From Mycetocola tolaasinivorans (GTDB lineage Bacteria; Actinomycetota; Actinomycetes; Actinomycetales; Microbacteriaceae): a stretch of 64,000 nt of DNA. Made by a program: the position numbers and the translations under genes. This document shows positions 1 to 24,183 of this stretch, in pieces. The notes beneath the pieces are model-generated. The model ran no database searches. It was given only the letters and a program-made list of their open reading frames with translations, and was not told the origin of the DNA. The stretch is taken from contig NZ_RCUX01000006.1 in NCBI RefSeq assembly GCF_003667565.1, positions 124,001-188,000 on the forward strand. Direction: 5' to 3'. How positions within the stretch are numbered: the stretch's first letter is position 1; the number at the start of each line of letters is the position of its first letter.

Positions 1-1000
1 TGGCGGAGAATGCCTCGGTCCACTCCTCGATCGGGTAGACGCCGCCGAGCACCAGGTCGGTGCGCAGCTTTCCCTCCCCGAACAGTCGGAGGACGTTTTC
101 CCATGTGCTCCAGGTGTGGGAGTAGCAGCCGTACAGCGTGACGGCCTTCTTGACGAGCGGGTCGAGGGTGAAGCCCAGCGGCTGCGGCCCCCATCCGACC
201 TTGGCGATGGCTCCGCCGGGACGGACGAGCTCCATGCTCTGCTGTAGGGCGGGGCTCACGCCGGTGGCGTCCACTACGAGGTCGGCACCAAAGCCGTCGT
301 GCAGGGTGGCGATGAGCTCCGCCGGGTTTTCCTGGGAGATATTGACCACGTGGGTGGCACCGAGTTCGCGGGCGATCTGCAGACGGTGAGTGTCGACATC
401 GGTTCCGAGGATCACGGTGGTGGCAGCGCCGCTGAGGATCGCCACCTGGAGTGCGAGGATGCCGATGGCTCCGGCGCCCTGAATGACCACGAGATTGCCG
501 GGGGAGACTCGGGCTCGCTCGACTACCGCGTTATAGGCCACCGCGAAGGGTTCGGTCATGGCGGCGGTCGTGAAGCTCACGCCCGCGGGGATGCGGTGCA
601 AAACCCGGGGTTCGGCGATCAGGTACTCGGCCATGGCTCCGTCACGCTTGAGGCCATAGCCCTCGCGGTGCGGGCAGAGGTTGTAGCGTCCGCTCAGACA
701 CAGGGCGCACTCGCCACAGATGCTCGCGGCGGTTTCGCAGACGACTCGGTCGCCGATGTTCCAGCCCTCAACGCCCGCGCCGATGGCATCGATGATGCCC
801 GCGGACTCGTGTCCGAGGGTGACCGGAAGGGTGCCCTTCGAGCTGGCGCTCTGTGAGTTATGCCACATGTGGATGTCTGATCCGCACACCCCAACGGTGT
901 GCACGCGTACCCGAACGGTCCCGGCCTCGGGAGTGGGTACCGGCCGCTCCCGGATCTCCACCGCATCCTGCTCCCAGGCGTATTTAACCAGCGCCTTCAT
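1..1000 (-). CDS. Zinc-dependent medium-chain alcohol/polyol dehydrogenase (3' end cut by the window)
   Basis: Translating the minus strand from the ATG at 1000 gives 333 uninterrupted codons that run off the left edge. Visible features are the catalytic-zinc region (VCGSDIH with Cys39; GHES with His64 and Glu65), four cysteines of a structural-zinc lobe (CGECALC and a later C) and a Rossmann loop (GAGAIG). This is the sorbitol/threonine/idonate dehydrogenase-like branch of the MDR superfamily, which oxidises a secondary alcohol of a polyol or sugar acid with NAD(P). An in-frame ATG lies at 1030, but AAGGAAA sits just before 1000, so 1000 is preferred. It is divergent from the isomerase operon at 1159 and probably shares its substrate. 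The exact substrate cannot be read from sequence. Confidence 0.88.
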   Translation of the reverse strand, partial: MKALVKYAWEQDAVEIRERPVPTPEAGTVRVRVHTVGVCGSDIHMWHNSQSASSKGTLPVTLGHESAGIIDAIGAGVEGWNIGDRVVCETAASICGECALCLSGRYNLCPHREGYGLKRDGAMAEYLIAEPRVLHRIPAGVSFTTAAMTEPFAVAYNAVVERARVSPGNLVVIQGAGAIGILALQVAILSGAATTVILGTDVDTHRLQIARELGATHVVNISQENPAELIATLHDGFGADLVVDATGVSPALQQSMELVRPGGAIAKVGWGPQPLGFTLDPLVKKAVTLYGCYSHTWSTWENVLRLFGEGKLRTDLVLGGVYPIEEWTEAFSA

Positions 1001-1158: not shown

Positions 1159-2112
1159 GTGAGAATCTCAGCTTTCCCCAAAGGCGACCTGGGCGCAATC
1201 GTTCAGACCCGCACAAAGTCCGTATACGAGTGGATCACCGAGGCGCAGACCCTCGGGGTTGACGGTTTGGAGCTCCACACCGGCTTTCTTCCCAATACCG
1301 CCCCCGAGCACGTACGCCGCCTCGGCGACGCGATTGCCACCGCCGGATTCGAGGCGCCCATGATGTGCGCCTCCCCGGACTTCACCCACCCGGATGCCGA
1401 TCAGCGCCGCCGAGAGATCGACGCTCACGCCGACTATATGCGCGTCACCCGCGAGATCGGTGGTGCGGGTGCCACCTGCCGCGTCCTGAGCGGGCAGGCC
1501 CACCCCGGAGTCTCCCGCGCGCAGGGGATCGACTGGGCGGCCGAAGCCATCACCGAGCTGCTGCCCCTCGCCCGCGAGCTCGACATCGTGCTCGCGATCG
1601 AGAACCACTACAAGGCGAGCACCTGGGCGTACCCTGAGTTTGCCCAGCGCCCCGATGTTTTCCTCGACCTGGTGGAGCGCATCCCGGACCGCGTGAACTT
1701 CGGTGTTCAGTTTGACCCCTCGAACGCCCTGGTGGCCGGGGTAGACGCCGCCGACTTCCTCGAGATCGTGATTGACCGCGTGGTCACCATGCAGGCATCG
1801 GACCGCTTCCTCGCCCCCGGCGCGAACCTCGAGGACCTCCGCCAGGCAGATGGCACGATTGGCTACTCGCCCGATCTCAAGCACGGCGTCATCGGTGAGG
1901 GCCTGAACAACTACGATCGCATCTTTGCGACGCTCGCGAGCAACGGCTATGACGGCTGGATCAGCATCGAGGACGGGGTGAACGGCCTCGACGAGATGCG
2001 TGCCTCGGCCGATTTCCTCCGTGACGCCCGCGATCGCTGGTTTGGTGGCTCCACCGCCGTCCACGTGCGTGCCCACGAGGCCGCGCGGCAGGCTCTCGAA
2101 TTCATCGACTAG
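1159..2112 (+). CDS. Sugar phosphate isomerase/epimerase, xylose-isomerase-like TIM barrel
   Basis: 317 residues starting at GTG 1159, preceded by GAGGAG. The protein shows the AP-endonuclease-2/xylose-isomerase-like barrel pattern: a metal-ligand Glu in LAIENH (about residue 148), Asp in FDPSN (about 186) and a C-terminal Glu in SIEDG. Family members isomerise or epimerise sugars, keto-acids or inositol derivatives with a divalent metal; hydroxypyruvate isomerase and IolE/IolI are relatives. It is the first gene of a four-gene rightward operon. The substrate is not identifiable, but a decarboxylase of the 3-keto-gulonate-phosphate family follows, so a sugar-acid pathway is likely. Confidence 0.85.
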   Translation: MRISAFPKGDLGAIVQTRTKSVYEWITEAQTLGVDGLELHTGFLPNTAPEHVRRLGDAIATAGFEAPMMCASPDFTHPDADQRRREIDAHADYMRVTREIGGAGATCRVLSGQAHPGVSRAQGIDWAAEAITELLPLARELDIVLAIENHYKASTWAYPEFAQRPDVFLDLVERIPDRVNFGVQFDPSNALVAGVDAADFLEIVIDRVVTMQASDRFLAPGANLEDLRQADGTIGYSPDLKHGVIGEGLNNYDRIFATLASNGYDGWISIEDGVNGLDEMRASADFLRDARDRWFGGSTAVHVRAHEAARQALEFID

Positions 2113-2182
2113 GCGCTTTCCGCCACCCCCGGGCACCCGCCCGCTATCCGCTCCGTCACCACACCCAACGAAGGGACCCCCT

Positions 2183-2911
2183 GTGACCACCTCCATTCGC
2201 GGCCTCGCCCGCACCGACCTGACCCACGGCATCGTTCAGGTTTCGCTCGACCTCAAGACACTGCCCGATGCCCTGCGCATGGCCACCATCGCCGTGGAAG
2301 CCGGGGCCGACTGGCTCGAAATCGGCACCCCACTCGTGATGTCCGTGGGCACCGACGCCGTGCGTGCGCTGCGCCGAGAGTTCCCGAACCACCCCCTGAT
2401 CGCCGACCTCAAGATCATGGACGGCGGCTACGGTGAGGCCGCCATGTACGCCGAGGCCGGCGCGGACGCCGTGGTCGTGATGGGCCGTGCCCACGATGCC
2501 ACGGTGCAGCGCGTTTGCCAGGCCGGTGAAGACTTCGGTCTGCTCGTCATGGGTGACGATATGGGTGCTTCCGATCGGATCGCGGAGGCCGCGCGGCTCG
2601 AGGCACTGGGTGTCGGCATGGTGCTGCACCACATCGGGCACGATCACCGCAGCATGCACCCCGAGCTGGGGCTCTCCCCGCTGACCGACCTGGCGGGGAT
2701 CGTGGCCGCCACCACCGTGCCGATTCAGGCCGTGGGCGGGCTCTCCATTGACCAGGCCGTGAGCTGCCCCACCGTGGGTGCGGGTGTCGTGGTGTTTGGT
2801 GCCCCGCTCGCCATCGATGACGAGACCTCGTTTACGATCCCCGAGGGCGATATGCCCCGGGTGCTCGGCGAGGCCATCGCCCGCGTTCACGCAACCCCGG
2901 TGGCCCGATGA
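2183..2911 (+). CDS. 3-hexulose-6-phosphate synthase / 3-keto-L-gulonate-6-phosphate decarboxylase family
   Basis: 242 residues from GTG 2183, with AAGGGA upstream; longer in-frame starts would lie inside the previous gene. It is a single (beta/alpha)8 barrel of the orotidine-5'-phosphate decarboxylase suprafamily. The diagnostic D-x-K-x-x-D motif (DLKIMD, residues 75-80) is intact, with a Glu in LEIGTP (46) and Asp in SLD (23). Family enzymes decarboxylate 3-keto-L-gulonate-6-P (UlaD/SgbH) or condense formaldehyde with ribulose-5-P (HPS). The neighbouring isomerases and the absence of a PHI partner favour sugar-acid decarboxylation over formaldehyde fixation. It overlaps the next gene by ATGA. 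Confidence 0.86.
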   Translation: MTTSIRGLARTDLTHGIVQVSLDLKTLPDALRMATIAVEAGADWLEIGTPLVMSVGTDAVRALRREFPNHPLIADLKIMDGGYGEAAMYAEAGADAVVVMGRAHDATVQRVCQAGEDFGLLVMGDDMGASDRIAEAARLEALGVGMVLHHIGHDHRSMHPELGLSPLTDLAGIVAATTVPIQAVGGLSIDQAVSCPTVGAGVVVFGAPLAIDDETSFTIPEGDMPRVLGEAIARVHATPVAR

Positions 2912-3288
2912 GTGTGACCTTCGCTCGGCTCCATCACGCCACCTTCACCCACCCCGTGGGGGCGGAGGACGAGGCGCGTGCCTTCTACTCCGGCATCCTC
3001 GGTCTGGCAGAGGTGCCCAAGCCCGCGACGATGCGCCCGATCGGGTGCTGGTTCCGCACCGACGGCATCGAGATTCACGGGCTCCCGGACCCGGACTTTA
3101 CCCCGCACACGGTGGGGCATCCGGCCATCCTGGTGGACAACCTGGACGAGCTGATGCGTCGCCTCGATGCGCACGGTGTGGCCTACACCGAGGATGACCG
3201 TTTCCCGGGGCACCGCCGATTCCACACCGCGGATGCCTTCGGAAACACCCTGGAGTTTCTGCAGGCCGAGAACGAGGAGCAGCGATGA
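2908..3288 (+). CDS. VOC (glyoxalase/bleomycin-resistance) superfamily protein
   Basis: 126 residues, one pair of beta-alpha-beta-beta-beta units typical of the VOC fold. Likely metal ligands are His in LHHATF near the N-terminus, His in VGHPAIL in the middle and Glu in TLEFLQ near the end. The family includes glyoxalase I, methylmalonyl-CoA epimerase, dioxygenases and sugar-acid isomerases. It sits between a decarboxylase and a TIM-barrel isomerase with 4-base overlaps on both sides, so it is translationally coupled and probably acts on a pathway intermediate, for instance as an epimerase. The reaction is not known. Confidence 0.78.
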   Translation: MSVTFARLHHATFTHPVGAEDEARAFYSGILGLAEVPKPATMRPIGCWFRTDGIEIHGLPDPDFTPHTVGHPAILVDNLDELMRRLDAHGVAYTEDDRFPGHRRFHTADAFGNTLEFLQAENEEQR

Positions 3289-4298
3289 CGCACCCGGTGA
3301 CCCTTTTTACCGCCCAGTGGGCAGACCTTCCCTTCGAGGAGGTGGCACGTCTCGCGTCCGAGTGGGGGTACGACGGGCTTGAGATCGCGTGCAAAACGCA
3401 GCACCTCGACGTGGACCGTGCGTTGGAGGACGAGGAGTATCTGAACTCCCGTCGCGACATTCTGGATCGCTACGGGCTCGGAGTCTGGGCCCTCTCCAAC
3501 CACGCACAGGGCCAGGTGATCTGCGATGATCCGCTGGACTTCCGACACGAGGGCATCGTGGGGCCGCGCACCTGGGGTGACGGGGACACCGACGGCGTGC
3601 GTGCGCGCGCTAGCGAGCAGATGAAGCGCACCGCCCGGGTGGCACGAAAGCTCGGAGTGGATACCGTTACCGGCTTCACCGGATCGAAGATCTGGCGCTA
3701 CCTGGCGATGTACCCACCCGTGCCGGCCGCGGTGATTGACGACGGCTACCAGGACTTCGCCGACCGGTGGAATCCCATCATGGACGTCTTCGATGGCGAG
3801 GGCGTGCGCTTTGCCCTTGAGGTGCACCCCAGCGAGATCGCCTACGACTACTGGACCACCAAGCGCACGCTGGAGGCCATTGATCACCGCGGTGCCTTTG
3901 GCCTGAACTGGGACCCCAGCCACATGATGTGGCAGGACGTGGACCCGGTGACATTCATCCTCGATTTTGCCGATCGGATCTACCACGTGGACTGCAAGGA
4001 CACCGTGATCCGACCCCGGGATGGGCGCGGGGGACGCCTGGGGTCGCACCTGGCCTGGGGCGATCAGCGCCGCCCCTGGGACTTTGTCTCGGCGGGGCAC
4101 GGGGACGTTCCGTTTGAGCGTGCCTTCCGAGCGCTCGATTCGATCGGCTACACCGGCCCGATCTCCATCGAGTGGGAGGACTCCGGGATGAGCCGGCTCC
4201 ACGGGGCCCCCGAGGCGCTCGCGCACGTGCGATCGCTGCTCTGGGAGCGGCCCACGGCAGCCTTCGACTCGGTGTTCACCCAGCGCGAGAGCGACTAG
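3285..4298 (+). CDS. Second TIM-barrel sugar isomerase/epimerase of the operon
   Basis: 337 residues, ATGA-coupled to the VOC gene. It has the xylose-isomerase-like barrel with metal-site residues in FALEVHPSE, LNWDPSHM, HVDCKD and ISIEWED. It differs clearly from the paralogue at 1159, with an extra region rich in Trp and Asp around residues 90-150, so the two probably catalyse different steps. It is similar in layout to IolE/IolI-like and UlaE-like proteins. It is the last gene of the rightward operon and is followed by a strong hairpin. Confidence 0.84.
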   Translation: MTHPVTLFTAQWADLPFEEVARLASEWGYDGLEIACKTQHLDVDRALEDEEYLNSRRDILDRYGLGVWALSNHAQGQVICDDPLDFRHEGIVGPRTWGDGDTDGVRARASEQMKRTARVARKLGVDTVTGFTGSKIWRYLAMYPPVPAAVIDDGYQDFADRWNPIMDVFDGEGVRFALEVHPSEIAYDYWTTKRTLEAIDHRGAFGLNWDPSHMMWQDVDPVTFILDFADRIYHVDCKDTVIRPRDGRGGRLGSHLAWGDQRRPWDFVSAGHGDVPFERAFRALDSIGYTGPISIEWEDSGMSRLHGAPEALAHVRSLLWERPTAAFDSVFTQRESD

Positions 4299-4369: not shown

Positions 4370-5794
4370 CTAGGGCTTGAACACCACGAGCTTGTGCTGC
4401 ACGAGCTCGTGGATCGCGTACTTCACGCCCTCGGTGCCCTGGCCCGAGCCCTTGACCCCGCCATAGGGCATCTGGTCGGCGCGGAACGAGGGTGGCATGT
4501 TGATCAGAACGCTGCCGGCCTCGGCGGTGCGCGCGTAGTGCATCGCCTCGGCCAGGTCCGCCGTGTAGAGCGCGGTGTTCAGCCCGTACTCCGAGGCGTT
4601 GACCCGGGAGATACCCTCGGCCACATCCGTGACGGCAATCACGCTGAGCACGGGTCCGAAGGCCTCCTCGCAGACGATGGCCGCGCTGTCCGGGGCATCC
4701 GCGAGGAGGGTCGGAGTGAGCACCCCGGCGCGCACCTCACCGCCCACCAGCACGCGGGCACCCTCGGTAACCGCGCGGGTAATGCTCTCGTGTAGGCCGT
4801 CGGTGGCAGCGGGAGTGATCATCGGGCCCACGAGGGTCTCCTCTCGGTAAGGGTCACCCACCGGTGCCGCCGCGAAGCGGGTCTGAAGCTCCGCGACCAG
4901 CTGATCATAGCGCTCCCTGACGACGTACAGCCGCTGCAGTGAGACACAGGCCTGACCGGAGTTCGACAGCGCCGCGGTGACCGCGTCAGCGGCCGCACGG
5001 GGCACATCGGCGCTCGCCCCCACCACCATCGCGGTGTTGGAACCGAGCTCCAGGACGTGCAGCTTGCGCGGCGAGCGTGCCTTGAGCTCCCACCCGACCC
5101 TGCTCGATCCGGTGAAGGTGATCACGGCCACCCGATCATCGGCGATCCACTCATCCACGATGGTTCCCGCCGAGCCGGTGACGAGATTGACCCGACCGGC
5201 GGGGAGTCCCGCCTCGGTCAGTACCTCGATCAGGGCACCGGCAACCAGCACCGCCTTATCGGAGGGTTTGAGCACCACGGCGCAGCCCGCCGCGAGGGCC
5301 GGTGCCACCTTGTGCAGCACCAGGTTTAGCGGGAAGTTGAACGGCGTAATCGCGGCCACGATGCCGCGTGGTTCGGCGAGGGTGAAGGCCATGGTGCCCG
5401 CCCCGGCGGCGGTGGCATCCAGGGCAACCGTCTCGGTGGGAAGGCGTCGCGCCTCCTCGGCCGCCCAGCCGAGGGTTTCCACCGCGCGTCCCACCTCGCC
5501 GCGGGCCGCCGTGATCGGCTTGCCCGTTTCGGCGGTGATGAGCGTGGCAAACTCCTCCGCGCGGGCGGCGATTCCGGCCGCGGTGCGGGCAAGAATTGCC
5601 GCGCGCTCGGGCACCGGTAGCGGGGTGTCGAGTGCCCGAGCCGCAGCATCCACGGCGGCTCCGGCCTGCCCGGCTCCGGCAATCGCGACGGAACCGATTT
5701 CCGTCCCGTTCCAACGATCGAGCACCGGTCGCGACGATGCCCCGGCGACCCACTCGCCGTCCAGGAACAGCAGCTGATCTCGGCGCGCGCTCAT
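4370..5794 (-). CDS. NAD(P)-dependent aldehyde dehydrogenase
   Basis: 474 residues, normal family length. Visible motifs are ITPFNFPLN and KPSDKA of the cofactor site, FTGSSRVG, the general base Glu in LELGSN and the catalytic Cys in NSGQACVS. The usual ELGG is ELGS and is followed by NTAMVV, as in subfamilies that oxidise lactaldehyde, glyceraldehyde-3-P, succinate semialdehyde or sulfolactaldehyde. It is the last gene of the eight-gene leftward operon and overlaps the upstream dehydrogenase gene by ATGA. The expected role is oxidation of the aldehyde released by the upstream aldolase (inference). Confidence 0.88.
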   Translation of the reverse strand: MSARRDQLLFLDGEWVAGASSRPVLDRWNGTEIGSVAIAGAGQAGAAVDAAARALDTPLPVPERAAILARTAAGIAARAEEFATLITAETGKPITAARGEVGRAVETLGWAAEEARRLPTETVALDATAAGAGTMAFTLAEPRGIVAAITPFNFPLNLVLHKVAPALAAGCAVVLKPSDKAVLVAGALIEVLTEAGLPAGRVNLVTGSAGTIVDEWIADDRVAVITFTGSSRVGWELKARSPRKLHVLELGSNTAMVVGASADVPRAAADAVTAALSNSGQACVSLQRLYVVRERYDQLVAELQTRFAAAPVGDPYREETLVGPMITPAATDGLHESITRAVTEGARVLVGGEVRAGVLTPTLLADAPDSAAIVCEEAFGPVLSVIAVTDVAEGISRVNASEYGLNTALYTADLAEAMHYARTAEAGSVLINMPPSFRADQMPYGGVKGSGQGTEGVKYAIHELVQHKLVVFKP

Positions 5795-6888
5795 CGGGTG
5801 CCTCCGCTGATGACCTCGGGCTCGCTAAAGCGAGCTGCCAGGGCGCGAATCTGCGAGATGACCTCGGCGGTCATCTGTTCGGTGGTTGCGGTACCGCCGA
5901 GGTCGCGGGTGCGCACGCCCGCGGCGAGGGCCGCTTCAAACGCCGCCTCGAGGTGGGCGGCCGCCCGCGGCGCCCCCAGCTGGTTCAACATCATCGCACC
6001 GCTCCAGATCTGACCAATCGGATTTGCGATGCCCTTCCCCGCAATGTCCGGGGCCGAGCCGTGTACCGGCTCAAACATCGACGGATGCCTTCCCTCGGGG
6101 TTGAGGTTTGCGCTCGGCGAGAGCCCAATGGAGCCCGCCACGGCACCGGCCAGGTCCGAAAGAATGTCCCCAAACAGGTTTGAGGCCACGATCACGTCGT
6201 AGTCCCAGGGGTGCAGGACGAGGCTGGCGGAGAGCGCATCGATCAGCTCGCTGCGCAGGGTCAGGCCCGGGTACTCGGCAAGTGTCTCGGCCACAATCTC
6301 ATCCCAGAACGGCATCGAGTGGATGATGCCGTTGCTCTTGGTGGCCGAGGTGACCCGGCCGCTGCGGGTGGTGGCGAGCTCCGCGGCAAACCGCGCCGCA
6401 CGGCTCACCCCGTGGCGGGTGAACAGGGCCTGCTGCATTGCGGCCTCCTGCGGCAGCCCGCGATAGGCACGGCCACCCACCTCCGAGTACTCGCCCTCGT
6501 TGTTCTCGCGGACCAGCACGAGGTCGATCGGCCGCTCATCGCGCAGTACCGAGGGAACCCCGGGAAGGGTGCGCACGGGGCGCAGGTTGATGTACTGCTC
6601 AAACTCCCGACGAATCGGGATCAGCAGTCCCCACAGTGTCTCCACATCGGGGATATCGGGTACCCCCACGGCACCTAGGAAAATGGCCGAGTGGGTACTC
6701 AGGGTTTCCAGGCCGTCAACCGGGAGCATCCGGCCGGTGGCGCGGAAGTGATCCGAGCCCCAGTCGAGGTGGTTCCAGTCCAGGCTCAGATCGTGGATCT
6801 GGGCGATCTCATCCAGGCAGCTAATCGCTGCGGGCATGACCTCGGTGCCGATGCCGTCCCCGGCAATTACGGCGATAGTGTGTTTCAC
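5791..6888 (-). CDS. Isocitrate/isopropylmalate-type beta-decarboxylating dehydrogenase, tartrate/D-malate dehydrogenase-like
   Basis: 365 residues. It has the family N-terminus (IAVIAGDGIGTEV), the substrate Arg region (RPVRTLPGVPS), LVRENNEGEYS, the catalytic Lys in ATKSN, the metal-binding Asp in VIVASNLFGDILSD and EPVHGSAPDIAGKG. The ENNEGEYS and GGRAYRG features point to the tartrate dehydrogenase/D-malate dehydrogenase branch rather than LeuB or Icd. These NAD- and metal-dependent enzymes oxidise 2-hydroxy-diacids, often with decarboxylation. Its place in a sugar operon with a kinase and aldolase is unusual. It overlaps the downstream aldehyde dehydrogenase start by ATGA. Confidence 0.86.
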   Translation of the reverse strand: MKHTIAVIAGDGIGTEVMPAAISCLDEIAQIHDLSLDWNHLDWGSDHFRATGRMLPVDGLETLSTHSAIFLGAVGVPDIPDVETLWGLLIPIRREFEQYINLRPVRTLPGVPSVLRDERPIDLVLVRENNEGEYSEVGGRAYRGLPQEAAMQQALFTRHGVSRAARFAAELATTRSGRVTSATKSNGIIHSMPFWDEIVAETLAEYPGLTLRSELIDALSASLVLHPWDYDVIVASNLFGDILSDLAGAVAGSIGLSPSANLNPEGRHPSMFEPVHGSAPDIAGKGIANPIGQIWSGAMMLNQLGAPRAAAHLEAAFEAALAAGVRTRDLGGTATTEQMTAEVISQIRALAARFSEPEVISGGTR

Positions 6889-6909
6889 GTTTTCCTCCGC
6901 GCATGGCGC

Positions 6910-7728
6910 TTAATCCTGTGCTGCCGGAACACCGGCAGATACCGTGACGACGTCAATCTCGTGGCTCTCGAGCATGCGCGCGTAGTCCTCCGAGAGGCCG
7001 TCGTCGATGATGATGCGATCGATCTCGCCCCAGTCGCAGATCTTGACCATGGCCGAGATCTCAAACTTCGAGGAGTCGGCGAGCAGCACAACGCGCTCGG
7101 CAACCTCGATCAGGGCGCGCTTGGTGATCGCGTCGAAACCGTTTCCGCAGAAGGCACCGCGCTCGCTCAGGCCACTCGCGGCCAGAAACAGCGTGCCGAT
7201 CTGCAGGTTGGAGATGGCGGCCAGGGTGGCCGGACCATCAAAGGAGAGTGATTCCGGGTGCAGGGTGCCGCCGAGGCAGATGACCTCCGCACCGGCGTTG
7301 CCGATCATGGCGGAAATCACCGGGAACGAGTGTGTGACGACCTGCAGGTTGCGGTCGGTGGGCAGCAGCGCGGCCATTTCCTTCGTGGTGGTCCCGGCAT
7401 CGATCGCGATGACCGAGTCCTGCTCCACCATCTGCAGTGCACGTTCGGCGATGGCCGTCTTGGCCGCGCCCATCTTCAGGTCGCGGAACTGGAAGTCACT
7501 GCCCTTGAGGTCGCTGCGGGTCAGGGATCCCACACCGCCGCGGAAGCCGCGAACCCGGCCCTGCTCGCTCAGGCGTAACACGTCACGCCGGATCGTCATC
7601 TCGGAGACCGCGAACGCCCGCGAGAGCTCGGCGATCGTGCAGTAGCCCTGTTCGGAGATGAACTGGACTAACCGATCACGACGTTCGGGTGCCGAGGTGT
7701 AGCGGAAGTTCTCTTCGATCTGCGACAT
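6910..7728 (-). CDS. DeoR/GlpR-family transcriptional regulator of the sugar operon
   Basis: 272 residues. The N-terminal winged helix ends in the classic DeoR signature (SRAFAVSEMTIRRDVLRL). The C-terminal DeoR sensor domain has AIDAGTTTKEMA and the usual D-rich end (LLADSSKF, IIIDDG). Such proteins usually repress until a phosphorylated sugar binds, which fits the kinase and aldolase encoded just upstream. It lies inside the operon, so it is probably co-transcribed and autoregulated. The likely operator is the inverted repeat at 12937-12958. Confidence 0.9.
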   Translation of the reverse strand: MSQIEENFRYTSAPERRDRLVQFISEQGYCTIAELSRAFAVSEMTIRRDVLRLSEQGRVRGFRGGVGSLTRSDLKGSDFQFRDLKMGAAKTAIAERALQMVEQDSVIAIDAGTTTKEMAALLPTDRNLQVVTHSFPVISAMIGNAGAEVICLGGTLHPESLSFDGPATLAAISNLQIGTLFLAASGLSERGAFCGNGFDAITKRALIEVAERVVLLADSSKFEISAMVKICDWGEIDRIIIDDGLSEDYARMLESHEIDVVTVSAGVPAAQD

Positions 7729-7757
7729 GATTTGCTCACTTTCCTATTGCGAAGACT

Positions 7758-8654
7758 CTAGGCCCCAATCGCGTCGGCAACGATGTCCGTCAACTCCTGC
7801 AGGCGGCGTGTTGACCGATCACGAAGCCCGACGCGCGGGTCGGGGGTGGATACGGTATCGGACCAGATTGCTCGACCGGCCAGGAACCCGCGTGCCCCAC
7901 CGCGGCAGGCCTCGCGGACCGCATCCGCAAAGTCCTCAAGGGCGACCCCATTCGACAGTACAACCCAGGGGCCGTCCACCGCCGCCGTCACACGCTCAGA
8001 TTCCTGTCTGACTGCCGAGACATCGCCCGGTACATACCCCGGGACCTCGCCCTTATAGATGCTGCCACCCAGGGCGGAGAGCTCGCGCGCGGCGGCCACG
8101 ATTGCCTCGTGTCGCTCGGCGTGGCTGGGCCAGTCGCCATCATCATCCGGCCGCACGATACCCTCCACCAGGCTGGCGACGCCCGCGCGCTCGGCGAGAT
8201 CCACGAAGTCGCGAACCAGCGCGGCGCGCTCCTCGATCCCGCGGCCCGGGTGCCAGATCACCAGGAGCTTGATCGCCACGGCACCCACGTGCTGGATGAA
8301 GTCGACGGTGGCCTCGGAGTCGAGGGTGGTGTTGATGACGGCGCGGCCTGCGGGCTGTTCGAGCACGTCGACGGCCAGGATGAGTCCGCGGTCTGACGCC
8401 AGGTTCTCGGGGCGATCGGTGGTGACCGCAAACGGACGATCCAGCAGGATCCCGGAGGCGTGGGCGGAGAGAAGCTCGATCGCGTCCGCCTTGAACCCAC
8501 GCAGTGTCTCGTCGGTCACGGGGGTGCCGTCCGCCTGGGCAGGGAACATGCGACGCAGGGATTCGCGCTGATCCAGGGCGAGCATCGTGTACCCGCCGCT
8601 CGGGGACTCCAGGGGTTCCAGGAGGGTCCGGGTCGCGGACTGGTTATCGGTCAT
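7758..8654 (-). CDS. Class I aldolase, YihT/LacD family (ketose-1-phosphate or related aldolase)
   Basis: 298 residues. The N-terminal SGGYTMLALDQRESLRRMF, the central IKLLVIW and the C-terminal GFLAGRAIWSD closely follow, as I remember it, E. coli YihT (6-deoxy-6-sulfofructose-1-phosphate aldolase); tagatose-1,6-bisphosphate aldolase LacD is a more distant relative. Lys201 in SIYKGEVPGY is the expected Schiff-base lysine. YihT has EPVVRP where this protein has EGIVRP. The gene start overlaps the end of the PfkB kinase gene by 11 nt, so kinase and aldolase are coupled. It probably cleaves a phosphorylated ketose to dihydroxyacetone phosphate plus an aldehyde; the substituent on carbon 6 is unknown. 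Confidence 0.84.
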   Translation of the reverse strand: MTDNQSATRTLLEPLESPSGGYTMLALDQRESLRRMFPAQADGTPVTDETLRGFKADAIELLSAHASGILLDRPFAVTTDRPENLASDRGLILAVDVLEQPAGRAVINTTLDSEATVDFIQHVGAVAIKLLVIWHPGRGIEERAALVRDFVDLAERAGVASLVEGIVRPDDDGDWPSHAERHEAIVAAARELSALGGSIYKGEVPGYVPGDVSAVRQESERVTAAVDGPWVVLSNGVALEDFADAVREACRGGARGFLAGRAIWSDTVSTPDPRVGLRDRSTRRLQELTDIVADAIGA

Positions 8655-9594
8655 GATTCTCCAATTCGATGGTGGTGGAATCGGTCGCGCTCAGGGCAGC
8701 GGCCGAGTGAAAATCCGTGGTGGTGGCGAGGAACTCGATGGTGGCTTCACGGGTGGGAATGGCGCTTCGCCCATCCAGTCCGCGGCAGGAGAGGGCGGCG
8801 ACCGCGTTTGCCCGGCGCGTGGCCTCGCTCAGCGGGAGCCCCTCAACGAGACCCGCTAGGAGGGCACCGTGGAAGACGTCACCCGCGCCCATGGTGGAGG
8901 TGATGGCCACCGTGAAACCGGGAACGAGGTGTACCCCTTCCGCATCTCGGACGTAGGCACCGTCGCCGCCGGCGGTCGCGACGGTGTGGGTTGCTCCCGC
9001 GGCATGAGCGGCCTGCAACGCCTCGGGAATTTTCCCCGGGAAGCTGCCCAGCAGCGCCGTCTCGGTGGGAGCGTAGAGGCTCACTCCGGTGAGATCGAGA
9101 TCCGGAATGGGATTGCCCGCGTCGATGCTGAGGTGCGCCGCGCTGGGCCGCGCGAGAAGTGCCGCCCGCACCGGAGCATATCCGGTCTGATCCACGTGGA
9201 TCCAGGCAGACACGTCGGTGGGAATGTGGGCGGGATCCGGCACCGCCGAGGGGGTGGTGATGATGGTTCGGGTGGGGCTGTCGGCGGGAATGATGATGAG
9301 GCTCTCGCAGGTGCGATGACCCGCGCGCACCTCCACCCAGTCCACGTTGACGCCCTCGGCAGCGAGCCCCGAGACCACCCGATGGCCCACGGGGTCATCC
9401 CCGACGACACCGCAAAATCCCACCCGGATCCCCTGACGGGCGAGGGCCACCGCCGCCGTTGCCGCCGGGCCCCCTCCGGCATGAACGAAGGGATCGGTGA
9501 GAATCCGCTGATCGCGCCCGGGCATGGTCGCCGCCCGCGCAATGGTATCCGCGGTGGCCGAACCCACACACAAAACGTCGAGCAGGGTGCCCAC
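8644..9594 (-). CDS. PfkB-family carbohydrate kinase
   Basis: 316 residues from a GTG start two bases after the upstream permease stop. It has the ribokinase-fold signatures: the early glycine-rich substrate region (AGGGPAATAAVALARQG) and the C-terminal anion-hole motif with the catalytic Asp (STMGAGDVFHGA, a variant of DTxGAGD with Ser in place of Asp). It is presumed to phosphorylate a ketose before cleavage by the adjacent aldolase, as YihV does for sulfofructose. The substrate is not determined by sequence. Confidence 0.87.
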   Translation of the reverse strand: MGTLLDVLCVGSATADTIARAATMPGRDQRILTDPFVHAGGGPAATAAVALARQGIRVGFCGVVGDDPVGHRVVSGLAAEGVNVDWVEVRAGHRTCESLIIIPADSPTRTIITTPSAVPDPAHIPTDVSAWIHVDQTGYAPVRAALLARPSAAHLSIDAGNPIPDLDLTGVSLYAPTETALLGSFPGKIPEALQAAHAAGATHTVATAGGDGAYVRDAEGVHLVPGFTVAITSTMGAGDVFHGALLAGLVEGLPLSEATRRANAVAALSCRGLDGRSAIPTREATIEFLATTTDFHSAAALSATDSTTIELENHDR

Positions 9595-9596
9595 GG

Positions 9597-10439
9597 CTAC
9601 TTCACCGCCCCGGCGGTCAGACCGGCAACGAGGTACTTCTGCAGGAACATGAAGCCCACCACGATCGGGACGCTGACTACGAGCGAGGCCGCCATGATCT
9701 GGCTCCAGTACACGTTGGTCTCGGTCGCGTATGCCTGTAACCCCACCGAGAGGGTTCTGGTTGTGGAGTTTGTCATCTGCGACGCAAAGAGGATTTCACC
9801 CCAGGCGGTCATGAAGGAGTAAATTGCGACGGCGATGATGCCGGGGCGCGCGGCCGGAACGATGATGCGGAACAGTGCACCGATCGCGGTGGTGCCATCC
9901 ACGCGGGCGGCCTCGTCGAGGTCCCGGGGAATGCCGTTCATATAGCTCGTGAGCATCCAGATGGAGAATGGCAGGGTGAAGGTCAGGTACGTGATGATCA
10001 GGCCCGGAAGGGTCTGGTAGAAGAACGTGATGCCCAGCGTCTTGTCGAGGTTCACAAAGATGATGAACAGCGGCAGGAGGAACAGCACTCCGGGGAACAT
10101 CTGGGTCGACAGGATCACACCCGAGAACGCACCGCGACCACGGAACCGGTAGCGGGACAGGGCATAGGACGAGAAGATCGCGATGATCACGCTGAACAAG
10201 GTCGCGGCGAGGCTCACGATGAGGCTGTTGCCAAAGTAGTGGGCCAGCGGCACCGTCTTCCAGATGTCGATGAACGGCTGGAACGTAAGATTTCGCGGCC
10301 ACCACTGGAAGGCCCCCTGCACATCCACCTCGGGCTTCATGGCCGAGGTGATCATGACGTACAGCGGAACCACGGTGAAAACGACGAGCGGTACGAGGAC
10401 CACCCAGCGGAAAATACGGAAGGAGATTTGCTCACGCAT
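9597..10439 (-). CDS. Sugar ABC transporter permease, MalG type
   Basis: 280 residues with six predicted membrane helices; the first follows residue 10. The cytoplasmic EAA loop (RDLDEAARVDGTTAIGALF) that contacts the ATPase is clear, and the protein ends with the typical AGAVK-type tail of CUT1 permeases. Its start overlaps the end of the partner permease gene by 8 nt. It forms the import channel with 10432-11460. No ATP-binding gene is present in this operon. Confidence 0.93.
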   Translation of the reverse strand: MREQISFRIFRWVVLVPLVVFTVVPLYVMITSAMKPEVDVQGAFQWWPRNLTFQPFIDIWKTVPLAHYFGNSLIVSLAATLFSVIIAIFSSYALSRYRFRGRGAFSGVILSTQMFPGVLFLLPLFIIFVNLDKTLGITFFYQTLPGLIITYLTFTLPFSIWMLTSYMNGIPRDLDEAARVDGTTAIGALFRIIVPAARPGIIAVAIYSFMTAWGEILFASQMTNSTTRTLSVGLQAYATETNVYWSQIMAASLVVSVPIVVGFMFLQKYLVAGLTAGAVK

Positions 10440-11460
10440 CGCGGTTCACCTTTCGGTTGATCAGGGCCCAGACCCCGGAGACGAGCACCAGGAAGAGCAT
10501 CAGCAGAACGGACATTGCCGAACCGAGACCGAAGTTCCAGTTGATGAAGGAACGGCCATAGATATTGATGGTGAGGAGGTTTGCTGAGTCCGGTGGTACC
10601 GCGCCAAACAGAACGAAGGGTGTATTGAACTCACGGAATGTCCAGAGGGTCAGCAGGAGAATCAGGACGGCGTTGATCGGCCGCATCATGCCGAATGTGA
10701 TGTGACGGATCTGCTGCCAGATGCTCGCCCCATCGATCTCGGCGGCCTGGTAGACGTCCTCGGGGATCGACTGCATTCCGGCCATCAGCATCAGGAAGGC
10801 GAAGGGCCACTGCTGCCAGATGGCCACAACCACCATCGACCCGAACGCGTTGTCACCGATCAGCCAGAATGGTGCCTCATCGAAGATTCCGAGTCCGTTG
10901 ACCAGAACCTCGTTGAGCAGGCCGTTGTCGCGCTGCAGGATGAACTTCCAGGTGATGATGCCCGCGTAGGCCGGAAGAGCGTAGGGAATGAGGAAGAGGG
11001 TGCGCAGGAGTCCGCGCCCGCGGAAGCTGCGCTGAAGCACCAGGGCGGCGGACATGCCGAAGATAAAGGAAACCCCCACCACCAGAATGGTGAACCCGAT
11101 GGTGGTGCCAAAGGACTGCAGGAGCTGCTTGCCCTGTGAGGTGTCAAAGCTGAGGGACGCCGAGTAGTTTCCGAGGCCCGCGAACGGCGCCTCGGACCAG
11201 TTGGTGATGTAGAACTGGGTGAGCTCGATAAAGCTCATCCAGAATCCCACGATCATGGGGATCACGTGGATCAGGAGCTCCATGATGACGGCGGGCAGGA
11301 TCAGCAGGTACGGCGTTGCCCGGGTCCAGGTGAACCACCGCTTCTTCGTGGGGCCTCCCGGCTTTCCGGCTGCCGGCCGGGAGCGTTTCGGGGCGGGTGT
11401 GTTCGCCCCGCTCCCGGTGCGGGCGGGGCGAGGGGCCTGCCCGACGGTTGATGTTTCCAT
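10432..11460 (-). CDS. Sugar ABC transporter permease, MalF type
   Basis: 342 residues. A basic, Pro/Gly-rich cytoplasmic N-terminus of about 45 residues precedes six predicted membrane helices. The EAA loop reads EDVYQAAEIDGASIWQQI. The first helix pair and the long periplasmic segment match the MalF side of CUT1 importers. It is the second gene of the operon and is separated from the binding-protein gene by a 12-bp hairpin, which may lower permease expression relative to the binding protein. Confidence 0.93.
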   Translation of the reverse strand: METSTVGQAPRPARTGSGANTPAPKRSRPAAGKPGGPTKKRWFTWTRATPYLLILPAVIMELLIHVIPMIVGFWMSFIELTQFYITNWSEAPFAGLGNYSASLSFDTSQGKQLLQSFGTTIGFTILVVGVSFIFGMSAALVLQRSFRGRGLLRTLFLIPYALPAYAGIITWKFILQRDNGLLNEVLVNGLGIFDEAPFWLIGDNAFGSMVVVAIWQQWPFAFLMLMAGMQSIPEDVYQAAEIDGASIWQQIRHITFGMMRPINAVLILLLTLWTFREFNTPFVLFGAVPPDSANLLTINIYGRSFINWNFGLGSAMSVLLMLFLVLVSGVWALINRKVNRDA

Positions 11461-11516
11461 GGTGTCTCCTAGACCGCGGGGGTACCCCGGGTCGGGTGCT
11501 CAGTCGTGGGGAAGGG

Positions 11517-11544
11517 GCCGGGGTCTCGTTGCCGAGACCCCGGC
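11517..11544 (-). terminator. Intercistronic hairpin after the binding-protein gene
   Basis: A perfect 12-bp stem (GCCGGGGTCTCG) with a TTGC loop lies just 3' of the binding-protein stop and before the first permease. No U tract follows, so it probably acts as a partial terminator or an mRNA 3'-stabilising element rather than a full stop. Confidence 0.6.
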
Positions 11545-11551
11545 GGGGGTG

Positions 11552-12856
11552 CTACTTGGTGGAGCCCATCTTCTGCTCGGCCTCATCGAGGGCCTTGCGC
11601 ACGGTGTCGGTGGTGATGGTTCCACCGGTGGCGGCCTGTGCGATCAGCGAGACCACAGCGCCGCCTACGTTGGCCTGGAACGCCTGCACACCGGGGACCA
11701 GCGGGAGGGGCTTGGAGAAGTCGGTCAGGATCTCGGTCCAGGTGTTGAGCAGCTCGGTGTCCTCGGTGAATCGGCCCTCAACGCCGGTGACCACGGGGAG
11801 GGAGGTGTAGGCCTTGTTGAGGATGGCCTGCTCCTCATCGCTGGTGAGGAACTTCACAAACTCGAGAGCGGCGTCGACGTTCTTGCTGCTCTTGAAGATG
11901 GAGATGTTGGTGCCGGCGACGAAGCTACCGATCTTGTCGCCCCCCACGGGAGCGGGAATCGGCACGACGCCGTACTGGTCTTCGGTCATGCCGTTCTGGG
12001 CGAGCACGTTGCCGGAGGAGGTCTGGGCCATGTACATGGCGGCATCGCCACGGGCGAAGTCCCCGGCCGCCTGAGCGCCCTCGGTGTACTGAGCGACGCT
12101 GGGGTTCACGACCTTGTCGGTGGCCAGGAGATCAACGTACTGCTTCACCCCGGCGACCATGCCGTCGGAGGTGAAGGTGGGCTTGCCGGCCTTGTCGAAG
12201 GCGGAGCCGCCGTTCTGGGCACCGAAGATGAAGGCCATGTGCATGCTGGCGTTTACGGTGCCACCGGGGATCACAATGCCGTACTTTCCCGTGGAGGCGT
12301 CGGTGAGTGCGGTGGCCGCACTCACGAGCTCCTCCCAGGTAGCGGGCGGGGTGAGGCCCTTATCGGCGAAGGCCTTCTTGTTGTAGTACAGGCCGTAGAC
12401 CTGGCTATAGAGGGGGATCGAGGTGGGGGTTTGTCCCTCGGCACCGGTGGTGGCGAAGGAGCTCTTGATGAAGCGGTCCTTGCCGCCGATCTTGTCGAGT
12501 GCGGCGTCATCGAAGGGGAAGAACGCACCGGTGGACTGGAAGGTCACGGCGTTCGTGTTTCCAATGTTGATGACGTCGGGTCCCTGACCGCTGACCGCCG
12601 CGGCGAGCGTGTTGTTGGTGAGGTCGGACCACGGGACAACCTCAAGCTTGACCTTGATACCGGTCTGCTTTTCGAACTTCGCAATTTCGGGCTTCAGGAT
12701 CTCGGCATCGTTGTCGAGGCTGGCACCCTGATTGCTTGCCCAGTACGTGATTGTTTTGACCTCGGCGTCGGTTCCGCCGGGCTCCGAGCTGCAGGAGGTC
12801 AGGCTGGCGGCTAGAACGATGGCCGTGATGCCGGCCGTGAGGATTCTGATCTTCAT
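11552..12856 (-). CDS. Extracellular sugar-binding lipoprotein of an ABC importer
   Basis: 434 residues from ATG 12856, with AGGGAGAG just upstream; a longer in-frame reading to 12985 lacks a ribosome site and would bury the signal peptide. The N-terminus is a lipoprotein signal (MKIRILTAG, hydrophobic stretch, lipobox LTSC). The mature part is a family-1 solute-binding protein (YWASNQGASLDN, VPWSDL, YTEGAQAAGDFARGDAAMY). It captures the sugar outside the membrane for the two permeases that follow. It is the first gene of the leftward operon. Confidence 0.93.
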   Translation of the reverse strand: MKIRILTAGITAIVLAASLTSCSSEPGGTDAEVKTITYWASNQGASLDNDAEILKPEIAKFEKQTGIKVKLEVVPWSDLTNNTLAAAVSGQGPDVINIGNTNAVTFQSTGAFFPFDDAALDKIGGKDRFIKSSFATTGAEGQTPTSIPLYSQVYGLYYNKKAFADKGLTPPATWEELVSAATALTDASTGKYGIVIPGGTVNASMHMAFIFGAQNGGSAFDKAGKPTFTSDGMVAGVKQYVDLLATDKVVNPSVAQYTEGAQAAGDFARGDAAMYMAQTSSGNVLAQNGMTEDQYGVVPIPAPVGGDKIGSFVAGTNISIFKSSKNVDAALEFVKFLTSDEEQAILNKAYTSLPVVTGVEGRFTEDTELLNTWTEILTDFSKPLPLVPGVQAFQANVGGAVVSLIAQAATGGTITTDTVRKALDEAEQKMGSTK

Positions 12857-22812: not shown

Positions 22813-24183
22813 ATGCCCGAAAATGCCCGTCGGACGCTCATGCCGAGCACGGTAATCGTCTCCGGAATCGTTGCCATGTTGGTGATTGTCGGCTTCGGGA
22901 CACGAGGGGCCGTCGGCGCGCTGATCATGCTTGCCATTGCGGGCCTTTTTACGGGTCTCTATGTTGCCCTTACGGGTCGTCGAAGCTGGGCGCGCCTCCC
23001 GGGGAATCGGCGCATGGGTGTACTCGTCCTTGCTGCGAGCATGGTCATGTTTATCATCGGCGGTTCGCTCCTGCCACGTGGATCTAGTTTGGCGGAAAGC
23101 CCGCCCGCGGATTTCGCGGGCACCGCATCTTCCGATGCTTCGGCGTTGAGTATCGCGCTGAGCTTTCCAGAGGACTTTGAACCCGTTGGATCGGCGAGGG
23201 GGCTTTTGGATACCCTTGAGATTCGTACAAAGGCCTGGCAGCCTGCTTTTGAAGGTGTTGAACAGTTTGGTATCGCAGAGCCACGTCCACAGGCCGGGAC
23301 CGAGAGCCTAACTGACCCCTACACCGGAGAGCAGTTGGCTGCCACCGGAAGTAAGAAGTCTGACCTGGTTGTGGACCACGTGGTTTCCCTAAAGAACGCG
23401 TGGCAGACCGGAGCACAGGAGCTGACCCCGGAGCGACGCGCACTGTTCGCCACAGATCCGCTCAACCTTGCCACGATCAGCGCCGAAGTACACCGCAAGA
23501 AAGCGGGATCCGATGCGGACCAATGGATGCCAACGTCCCCTGAGCGCGAGTGCGCCTATGTTGCACGCCAGGTTTCGATAAAGGCCGTATACGGTCTCTG
23601 GGTGACGGCTCGTGAGCGGGCCGTATTTGTCGAGACTCTTGAGCGGTGCCCGGCTCAGAATGCAGTTCAGTCCTCTATCGCCCAGAGTCAACCGCGGCCA
23701 CTTCCCGAACCTGATCCAATTCCGACTACCGCATCTGATGAGTCAACGGTTGTACCAGCTCCATCGGTGAGGCAACAGCAGGCTCCCTCATCTAAGCCCG
23801 ATGTACCATCTGCGCCGGCTAAGCCTGCTGCTCCGCCTGCGCCGGCTAAGCCTGCTGCTCCGCCTGCGCCGGCCAAGCCTGCTGCTCCGCCTGCGCCGGC
23901 CAAGACTGCTGCTCCGCCCGCTCCTGCCCCGGCAGCAACCAAACCCGCAGTGCCCGCAGTGCCCTCAGTTCCCGCGGTGCCGCCTGCACCTGCACCTGCA
24001 CCTGCACCTCCGGCTCCTCCTGCACCAGCTCCGCCCAAATATGAGCCGGTGCCGCCGTCGGGAGGCACCGTGCGCCCTGGGTCATTCTGCACGCCAGCCG
24101 GGGCAACCGGATACACCGTGAAGGGGACTCCGATGGTGTGTGGCGTGGCAAAGGGCGGACGTCTGCGCTGGATCTCCCGCTAG
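22813..24183 (+). CDS. Membrane-anchored HNH nuclease-family protein with a Pro/Ala repeat tail
   Basis: 456 residues. Three predicted membrane helices (about 12-28, 34-53, 68-87) precede a domain of the DUF1524/HNH family: DPYTG (168-172), DHVVSLKNAWQTGAQ with Asp188-His189, and DPLNL. The region that in the neighbouring paralogue holds GCDTRND and a cysteine is missing, and the NSQK position reads HRKK, so activity is uncertain. Residues 280-425 are low-complexity PAKPAAPPA-type repeats; the end (CTPAGATGY, MVCGV, RLRWIS) is a small Cys-containing wall-associated motif. GC content is lower than in neighbours. Confidence 0.8.
   Translation: MPENARRTLMPSTVIVSGIVAMLVIVGFGTRGAVGALIMLAIAGLFTGLYVALTGRRSWARLPGNRRMGVLVLAASMVMFIIGGSLLPRGSSLAESPPADFAGTASSDASALSIALSFPEDFEPVGSARGLLDTLEIRTKAWQPAFEGVEQFGIAEPRPQAGTESLTDPYTGEQLAATGSKKSDLVVDHVVSLKNAWQTGAQELTPERRALFATDPLNLATISAEVHRKKAGSDADQWMPTSPERECAYVARQVSIKAVYGLWVTARERAVFVETLERCPAQNAVQSSIAQSQPRPLPEPDPIPTTASDESTVVPAPSVRQQQAPSSKPDVPSAPAKPAAPPAPAKPAAPPAPAKPAAPPAPAKTAAPPAPAPAATKPAVPAVPSVPAVPPAPAPAPAPPAPPAPAPPKYEPVPPSGGTVRPGSFCTPAGATGYTVKGTPMVCGVAKGGRLRWISR
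23812..23919 (+). repeat. Four tandem 27-bp repeats within the HNH-protein gene
   Basis: Four in-frame copies of a 27-bp unit starting GCGCCGGCTAAGCCTGCTG encode APAKPAAPP-type blocks. Units 1 and 2 are identical and units 3-4 differ at a few positions. Such tracts change copy number by slippage, altering the length of the extracytoplasmic linker. Confidence 0.85.

Follow-up and report, generated by a model that had tools for sequence, protein, structure and literature searches.

An eight-gene operon in Mycetocola tolaasinivorans

We analysed a putative sugar-catabolic operon in a 64,000-nucleotide stretch of the M. tolaasinivorans genome (contig NZ_RCUX01000006.1, positions 124,001 to 188,000; this whole stretch is called the window, and coordinates refer to it). 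Eight minus-strand genes occupy positions 4370-12856 in the order SBP-P1-P2-KIN-ALD-DeoR-TDH-ALDH, with the SBP start at 12856 and the ALDH stop at 4370. They encode a lipoprotein-type sugar-binding protein (SBP, 11552-12856; PF01547, SBP_bac_1), two ATP-binding cassette (ABC) importer permeases with matches under the NCBIfam cut-offs (P1, 10432-11460, UgpA-like, 89 bits; P2, 9597-10439, MalG-like, 124 bits), a PfkB-family protein that we propose to be a ketose 1-kinase (KIN, 8644-9594), a class I aldolase of the DeoC/LacD family with Lys201, predicted to form dihydroxyacetone phosphate (DHAP) (ALD, 7758-8654), a DeoR-family regulator (6910-7728; PF00455 and PF08220), a tartrate dehydrogenase-like protein of the Iso_dh family proposed as a decarboxylating D-malate dehydrogenase (TDH, 5791-6888) and an aldehyde dehydrogenase proposed to act on malic semialdehyde (ALDH, 4370-5794; PF00171).

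The intergenic gaps from SBP to ALDH (91, -8, 2, -11, 29, 21 and -4 bases) are as expected for a single transcription unit; a promoter and terminator scan gave no signal clearly exceeding shuffled sequence. The only near DNA matches on plasmids were two partial ones in Arthrobacter. An earlier note made from this DNA alone had listed an ABC importer, a PfkB kinase, a YihT-like Lys201 aldolase, a DeoR regulator, TDH and ALDH; coordinates and family profiles bore out this gene content. The observation as a whole is thus confirmed, and its interpretation is partly supported.

Conservation across actinobacterial genomes

Scanning named genomes yielded 32 loci. The operon core was found at 24 actinobacterial loci whose aldolases belong to a single clade, comprising the window, 20 other loci of the clade and L077-L079. 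TDH was present in 21 of the 24 and ALDH in 19. Gene presence and absence were scored by tblastn; the homemade gene caller misplaces genes. L058 (the same record as L015) and L080 and L081 (the places of L033 and L041) were removed before counting, and L051, almost identical to L044, enters the locus total of 24 and the TDH total of 21 but is left out of the 18 ALDH rows compared below.

The loci differed in layout. Group A (L028, L029, L031-L036 and L039, plus L030 on a short contig; L033 starts inside P1) has the order SBP-P1-P2-KIN-ALD-DeoR-(TDH)-(ALDH), followed by XI2-(GLO)-HPS-XI1 and ZnDH-GFO1-GFO2, genes that are described below; in L032, ALDH is located apart and adjoins a second DeoR gene. 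Hosts of this group include Streptosporangiaceae, Micromonosporaceae, Jiangellaceae, Nakamurellaceae and others. Group B (L015, L037, L038, L040, L041 and L056) keeps ALD-DeoR with different transporters; KIN was present in five of the six, as were TDH and ALDH together (not in L015). L015, L038 and L056 additionally hold XI1, a glycoside hydrolase family 2 (GH2)-type gene and a short-chain dehydrogenase/reductase (SDR) gene, families that were tested on one member each. Group C (L042, L044, L047 and L051) is a short version consisting of a transporter, KIN, ALD, DeoR, ZnDH, TDH and ALDH. The gene set is not a product of chance, because it recurs across several actinobacterial families and, built from different members of these enzyme families, also in Cereibacter sphaeroides.

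Kinase and aldolase related to YihV and YihT

Among solved structures, KIN and ALD were closest to the sulfofructose kinase YihV (7ag6, E 1.6e-31) and to YihT (1to3, E 1.7e-56), indicating that they are of the YihV/YihT kind, as had been suggested earlier. The predicted ALD model (predicted local distance difference test score 95.3) had a TM score of 0.89 to 1to3 and also matched a sulfohexulose-1-phosphate aldolase from Paracoccus, to which it is 26-27% identical. Lys201 falls at the YihT lysine in the alignment and was invariant in all 25 aligned aldolases, as were D28, K129, E164 and R261. ALD matched all four tagatose-aldolase models below their cut-offs (PRK12858 best, with 122 of 184 bits; TIGR01232, 37 of 432), and KIN scored 94 of 300 bits, under the cut-off, with the IolC model TIGR04382.

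In a quick tree without bootstrap, window-type aldolases formed a 26-row clade (Shimodaira-Hasegawa-like approximate likelihood ratio test support 94) separate from the 10-row YihT clade (94); this tree, the second made for the aldolase, left out the distant rows L023-L027 and had L059 cut to 300 residues. Similarly, the window-type kinases of groups A and B grouped in a clade of 19 rows (91), separate from the kinases of the sulfo-Embden-Meyerhof-Parnas (sulfo-EMP) type (95; six rows, five of them distinct), and the group C kinases fell outside both; this kinase tree includes L021 twice. Kinase position 136 was Q in 17 of 18 window-type sequences versus H in 5 of 5 of the sulfo-EMP type.

The earlier note had expected sulfonate-pocket residues to be decisive. 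K27, N109 and R138, which we take to be the sulfonate-binding residues of YihV, are not kept in the window KIN, nor in the kinase of L016, which lies beside a YihS homologue. Because the L016 kinase lacks them despite this neighbour, these residues cannot discriminate; they were dropped as a criterion, and the expectation was not borne out. We also listed the aldolase columns that differ between the clades; no pocket could be read from them.

Membership of the YihT-like family alone does not imply a sulfo-sugar, since such aldolases also occur beside other kinases: they adjoin FGGY kinases in L020 and L049, where the kinases were tested, and a kinase annotated as iolC in Rhodococcus. In L054 and L046, too, YihT-like aldolases lie beside putative FGGY kinases, and L049 also holds a GH127 arabinofuranosidase. 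The pairing of a YihT-like aldolase with an FGGY kinase at these four loci is possibly another kinase-aldolase pathway.

The operon differs from known sulfoglycolysis

By its gene complement, the operon is not the known sulfoglycolysis (sulfo-EMP), a point of the earlier note that the separate aldolase clade and the missing YihS family uphold. The YihS family (PF07221) was absent from this genome (93% complete) and from three of four relatives that carry the operon (G149, G415 and G114); the match in the fourth, G130, was weak, and those in G058 and G052, the sulfo-EMP control genomes of L016 and L021, were strong. When Salmonella proteins were searched by tblastn (E 1e-5), YihS, YihQ, YihU and TauE had no match in the window or the 18 kb upstream, in agreement with the predicted absence of a YihS-like isomerase, a YihQ sulfoquinovosidase and a YihU reductase. 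YihT and YihV matched ALD and KIN alone, and YihW matched the operon DeoR gene and two other DeoR genes. The operon-linked Gfo genes are, over parts of their length, 22-34% identical to Gfo genes of sulfo-EMP clusters, a comparison in which GH188 itself was not searched. GH188, a sulfoquinovosidase family besides the GH31 family of YihQ, is described in PMC11465081.

The two systems share a PfkB kinase, a class I YihT-like aldolase, a DeoR regulator, an ABC importer and an aldehyde dehydrogenase. Unlike sulfo-EMP clusters, the operon has no YihS-family isomerase and no nearby TauE homologue, its aldolase belongs to a separate clade, its ALDH is of another type (it shares 33-37% identity with sulfo-EMP cluster ALDHs) and TDH is added. 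As a sulfo-EMP example we used L016, which combines a YihS homologue of 59% identity with a Gfo gene that shares 62% identity with the one in an Arthrobacter cluster where TauE is annotated as well. The enzyme complement had been called wrong for sulfoglycolysis in the earlier note, and this stands for TDH and the missing isomerase. It does not stand for an aldehyde dehydrogenase in the reductase's place or for a missing YihQ: both are known from Arthrobacter sulfo-EMP, which is reported to use an aldehyde dehydrogenase and to have no sulfoquinovosidase gene (PMC8873060). Only TDH and the missing isomerase are therefore unusual.

The TDH-ALDH tail

TDH passed TIGR02089 (483 bits, cut-off 470) but not the sister model NF006048 (472 versus 501), and it is 51% identical to the Escherichia coli protein annotated dmlA. 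Nine residues (W86, R93, R103, R127, Y134, K184, D217, D241 and D245), to which we assign malate-site and metal roles on the presumed analogy of isopropylmalate dehydrogenase, are shared by DmlA and all 21 locus TDHs; the Cereibacter and rhizobial TDHs carry H at W86. The solved structure nearest to ALDH was moss ALDH21, nearly tied with uncharacterised enzymes. We take ALDH21 to be a succinic-semialdehyde enzyme that binds the carboxylate through R121 and R457; all 18 window-type ALDHs compared keep the matching R103 and R438. A different arginine pair, of the GabD type, is present in the ALDHs of sulfo-EMP clusters, Cereibacter and Acinetobacter baumannii.

A comparable tail is known from carnitine breakdown, in which a malic semialdehyde dehydrogenase and a beta-decarboxylating D-malate dehydrogenase were reconstituted to yield pyruvate and CO2 (PMC11353897). 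The corresponding A. baumannii region (L138) has ALDH and TDH, its remaining operon genes being recognised by eye. As in the window, the ALDH there has a beta-decarboxylating dehydrogenase as its partner, which shares 49% identity with the window TDH; the differences are that malic semialdehyde comes from carnitine there and, as we propose, from a sugar aldolase here, and that the two ALDHs are only 33% identical. The scheme sketched in the earlier note, in which DHAP and an aldehyde are formed and the aldehyde is oxidised to an acid that is subsequently decarboxylated, agrees with the ALDH and TDH residues.

Elsewhere, in two rhizobia and one Phyllobacterium (L126, L127 and L131), TDH adjoins ALDH in clusters that by their gene names resemble (hydroxy)ectoine breakdown, where a hydroxylated C4 diacid might be the TDH substrate.

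A second kinase-aldolase pair with a similar tail in Cereibacter

A plasmid of Cereibacter sphaeroides carries a run of genes annotated, in this order, as DeoR, SBP, two permeases, UgpC, zinc dehydrogenase, succinate-semialdehyde dehydrogenase, tartrate dehydrogenase, aldolase and sugar kinase. The kinase and aldolase are 48% and 46% identical to YihV and YihT, the aldolase falls within the YihT clade, and the kinase keeps the matches of K27 and R138. The TDH is 50% identical to that of the window, and the ALDH shares 51% identity with the A. baumannii ALDH, 43-48% with ALDHs of sulfo-EMP clusters and 57% with a rhizobial succinate-semialdehyde dehydrogenase. Records of C. sphaeroides 2.4.1 contain both the aldolase and TDH at 100% identity. 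Two distinct kinase-aldolase pairs are thus joined to two distinct tails of the semialdehyde/D-malate type, which we take as the strongest sign that malic (or tartaric) semialdehyde is the aldolase product.

A linked module of putative sugar-modifying genes

The coordinates in the earlier note held for the operon and left out a linked module, consisting of XI1, HPS, GLO and XI2 (1159-4298), ZnDH and two Gfo genes. On the plus strand, convergent with the operon, lie XI1 (1159-2112), a xylose-isomerase-like TIM barrel (PF01261) whose nearest fold was the isomerase Art22 (Z 29.9) in a search that returned just the broad isomerase/epimerase family; HPS (2183-2911), of the hexulose-6-phosphate synthase/orotidine decarboxylase superfamily (PF00215; PRK07028, 160 bits, under cut-off), with 3-hexulose-6-phosphate synthase as nearest solved structure; GLO (2908-3288), a glyoxalase-family protein (PF00903); and XI2 (3285-4298), xylose-isomerase-like and of the SCO6571/keto-glucal hydratase type (2zds, E 7.7e-151; the 2-hydroxy-3-keto-glucal hydratase 8ro4, E 1.4e-36). 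ZnDH (1-1000, minus strand), a zinc alcohol/polyol dehydrogenase truncated by the window edge, scored best in NCBIfam with scyllo-inosose 3-dehydrogenase (226 bits against a cut-off of 450), followed by threonine dehydrogenase (223 and 222 bits); its orthologues, at 69-80% identity, lie within the XI1/HPS module of ten loci. Beyond the edge, ZnDH is followed by two Gfo/Idh/MocA genes, GFO1 and GFO2. Past GFO2, on the opposite strand, we recognised by eye a third Gfo gene, a third XI gene and an SMP30-like gene. The relationships of XI2, XI1 and HPS suggest keto-sugar chemistry upstream of the ketose.

In an even class sample of 394 genomes, ALD matches of at least 55% identity occurred in six, and XI1 matches of at least 70% in five, all among those six (hypergeometric chance 8e-11); since each of two pairs comes from a single genus, fewer events than counted are independent. 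The two modules lie 1.6 Mb apart in G114 and about 17 kb apart in G415. Against strict coupling, G254 carries ALD without XI1, and HPS, ZnDH and XI1 occur together in L116-L120 (43-55% identity; four of the five add an SDR-like gene) with no ALD match in the stretch. These five belong to one family of small genomes, presumably freshwater actinobacteria, and their sets without an aldolase are probably a separate keto-sugar pathway. The survey of linked-module regions covered five of the six regions retrieved.

Upstream of the window, at positions 8548-11068 of L060, a mannitol-dehydrogenase-family gene and a PfkB kinase gene lie beside a DeoR gene (by eye), perhaps a polyol operon.

A proposed route through a C7 ketose acid

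We propose, with a probability of roughly 45%, that the operon imports and degrades a sugar, or a derivative of one, that is turned into a D-configured C7 2-ketose acid, which would be cleaved to DHAP and D-malic semialdehyde, the latter ending as pyruvate and CO2. We infer the substrate, its stereochemistry and every reaction; the enzyme families, their linkage, the catalytic and carboxylate-site residues and the absence of the YihS family are read directly from the sequence. DHAP and a carboxylate-bearing C4 semialdehyde together make a C7 ketose acid, which would be CH2OH-CO-(CHOH)3-CH2-COO-, a carboxylate isostere of 6-deoxy-6-sulfofructose with the carboxylate one carbon past C6. KIN would phosphorylate C1, and ALD, through Lys201, would cleave C3-C4 to give DHAP and D-malic semialdehyde (3-hydroxy-4-oxobutanoate). 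ALDH would then form D-malate, which TDH would convert by oxidative decarboxylation to pyruvate and CO2. A D-configured C5 yields D-malate, the substrate of DmlA-type enzymes. D-Malate is not directly usable by the tricarboxylic acid cycle; since TDH would turn it into pyruvate and CO2, nothing would have to be excreted. The linked module (XI1, HPS, XI2, ZnDH, GFO1 and GFO2) may convert the imported compound into the ketose, and ZnDH may make it from a polyol-like acid in group C and Cereibacter, whose versions are self-contained. As a variant, a hydroxyl at C6 would lead to tartaric semialdehyde and then tartrate.

This proposal is supported by the relationship of KIN and ALD to enzymes that act on a ketose with a CH2-anion at C6: a CH2-COO- matching the CH2-SO3- of sulfofructose in place and charge would explain the recruitment of YihV and YihT relatives. 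Further support comes from the DmlA-like residues of TDH, the presumed carboxylate arginines of ALDH, the carnitine precedent, the Cereibacter cluster, the linkage of TDH and ALDH to the operon core and the lack of a TauE homologue in the window and 18 kb upstream. Of the sulfo-, deoxy- or carboxylated ketose considered in the earlier note, we favour the carboxylated one, probably deoxy at C6, and do not favour the sulfo-sugar; a carboxylated C7 ketose appears the most likely substrate.

Several observations weigh against it. By tblastn, TDH was absent from three of the 24 loci (L015, L029 and L039), ALDH from five (L015, L028, L031, L035 and L039) and KIN from L041, and the Pseudomonadota rows L050 and L059 join the 26-row aldolase clade with no TDH found in their stretches. 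TDH-like enzymes also take tartrate or isopropylmalate. The window ALDH is distant from that of the A. baumannii carnitine operon, with H, S and R in place of the carboxylate residues R166, R284 and S447 of the malic semialdehyde dehydrogenase there, and its best NCBIfam matches, under cut-off, are lactaldehyde (399 of 650 bits) and sulfoacetaldehyde dehydrogenases. With the Cereibacter aldolase inside the YihT clade, the clade argument against sulfo-sugars is not absolute, and the Cereibacter ALDH, whose residues are common to sulfo-EMP ALDHs and which is 57% identical to the rhizobial enzyme, does not single out malic semialdehyde. We know of no natural C7 acid of the proposed kind, and a literature search for one found none.

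Alternative substrates

A neutral ketose (a hexulose, pentulose or 6-deoxyhexulose) could instead be cleaved to DHAP and glyceraldehyde, glycolaldehyde or lactaldehyde, with ALDH forming glycerate, glycolate or lactate and TDH serving another carbon source. The lactaldehyde dehydrogenase score of ALDH, the sub-cut-off matches of ALD to tagatose-bisphosphate aldolase models and the loci missing TDH or ALDH are consistent with such a route, which we nevertheless consider unlikely, given that TDH accompanies ALD at 21 of the 24 loci and that ALDH keeps, in 18 of 18 sequences, two presumed carboxylate arginines that a neutral aldehyde would not need. The tagatose-6-phosphate pathway (LacC/LacD) resembles the operon in that LacD is a fold relative of ALD (22-24% identity among the chains listed); it differs in the aldolase models, none of whose cut-offs ALD reaches, and in the sugar-phosphate importer, which the operon lacks. 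For a sulfo-sugar, the aldolase would release sulfolactaldehyde, ALDH would give sulfolactate and TDH, treating it as a malate analogue, sulfopyruvate. The nearest solved kinase and aldolase agree with this, as do the Cereibacter aldolase of the YihT clade beside TDH and the K27 and R138 matches of its kinase. It is made quite improbable by the absence of the YihS family from the four genomes, the separate clade of the window aldolase, the low identity of ALDH to its sulfo-EMP counterparts, the Q at kinase position 136 and the missing TauE homologue in the window and 18 kb upstream, where other sulfonate genes were not searched.

The myo-inositol tail also has a kinase (IolC) followed by a DHAP-forming aldolase (IolJ) on a keto sugar acid, and we take the proposed C7 ketose to be a one-carbon homologue of its 5-dehydro-2-deoxygluconate. 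The aldolase family is different, and the operon has an ALDH-TDH tail, whereas the inositol route ends in malonate-semialdehyde decarboxylation. By analogy with IolC and IolJ acting on the 2-deoxy compound, a C6 hexuronate or 5-ketoaldonate, phosphorylated on the CH2OH next to the ketone, might yield DHAP and tartronate semialdehyde, with ALDH and TDH handling tartronate. The IolC match of KIN, the iolC-annotated kinase adjoining a YihT-like aldolase in Rhodococcus and the scyllo-inosose dehydrogenase score of ZnDH point this way. Decarboxylation by enzymes of the TDH family, however, requires a carboxylate beta to the carbinol, and tartronate offers none; we regard this route as very unlikely.

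If the C7 ketose acid route is right, it adds a new kinase-aldolase branch of sugar metabolism ending in D-malate, gives some orphan 'tartrate/D-malate dehydrogenases' a role, cautions against annotating all YihT and YihV homologues as sulfoglycolytic and points to a C7 sugar acid not yet known. More tentatively still, a natural 'carboxyglycolysis' may mirror sulfoglycolysis, with C7 sugar acids yielding DHAP and D-malic semialdehyde and D-malate serving as a genuine intermediate of sugar catabolism, in actinobacteria and, with enzymes of the YihV/YihT clades themselves, in an alphaproteobacterium; this would imply an overlooked natural pool of C7 sugar acids. The pathway was not found in the literature searched, which covers few subscription papers, so that its absence from print is not shown.

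Other features of the window

Elsewhere in the window, a HipA-like kinase gene lies at 45671-46942, and 22813-24183 encodes a protein matching the GmrSD C-terminal domain.

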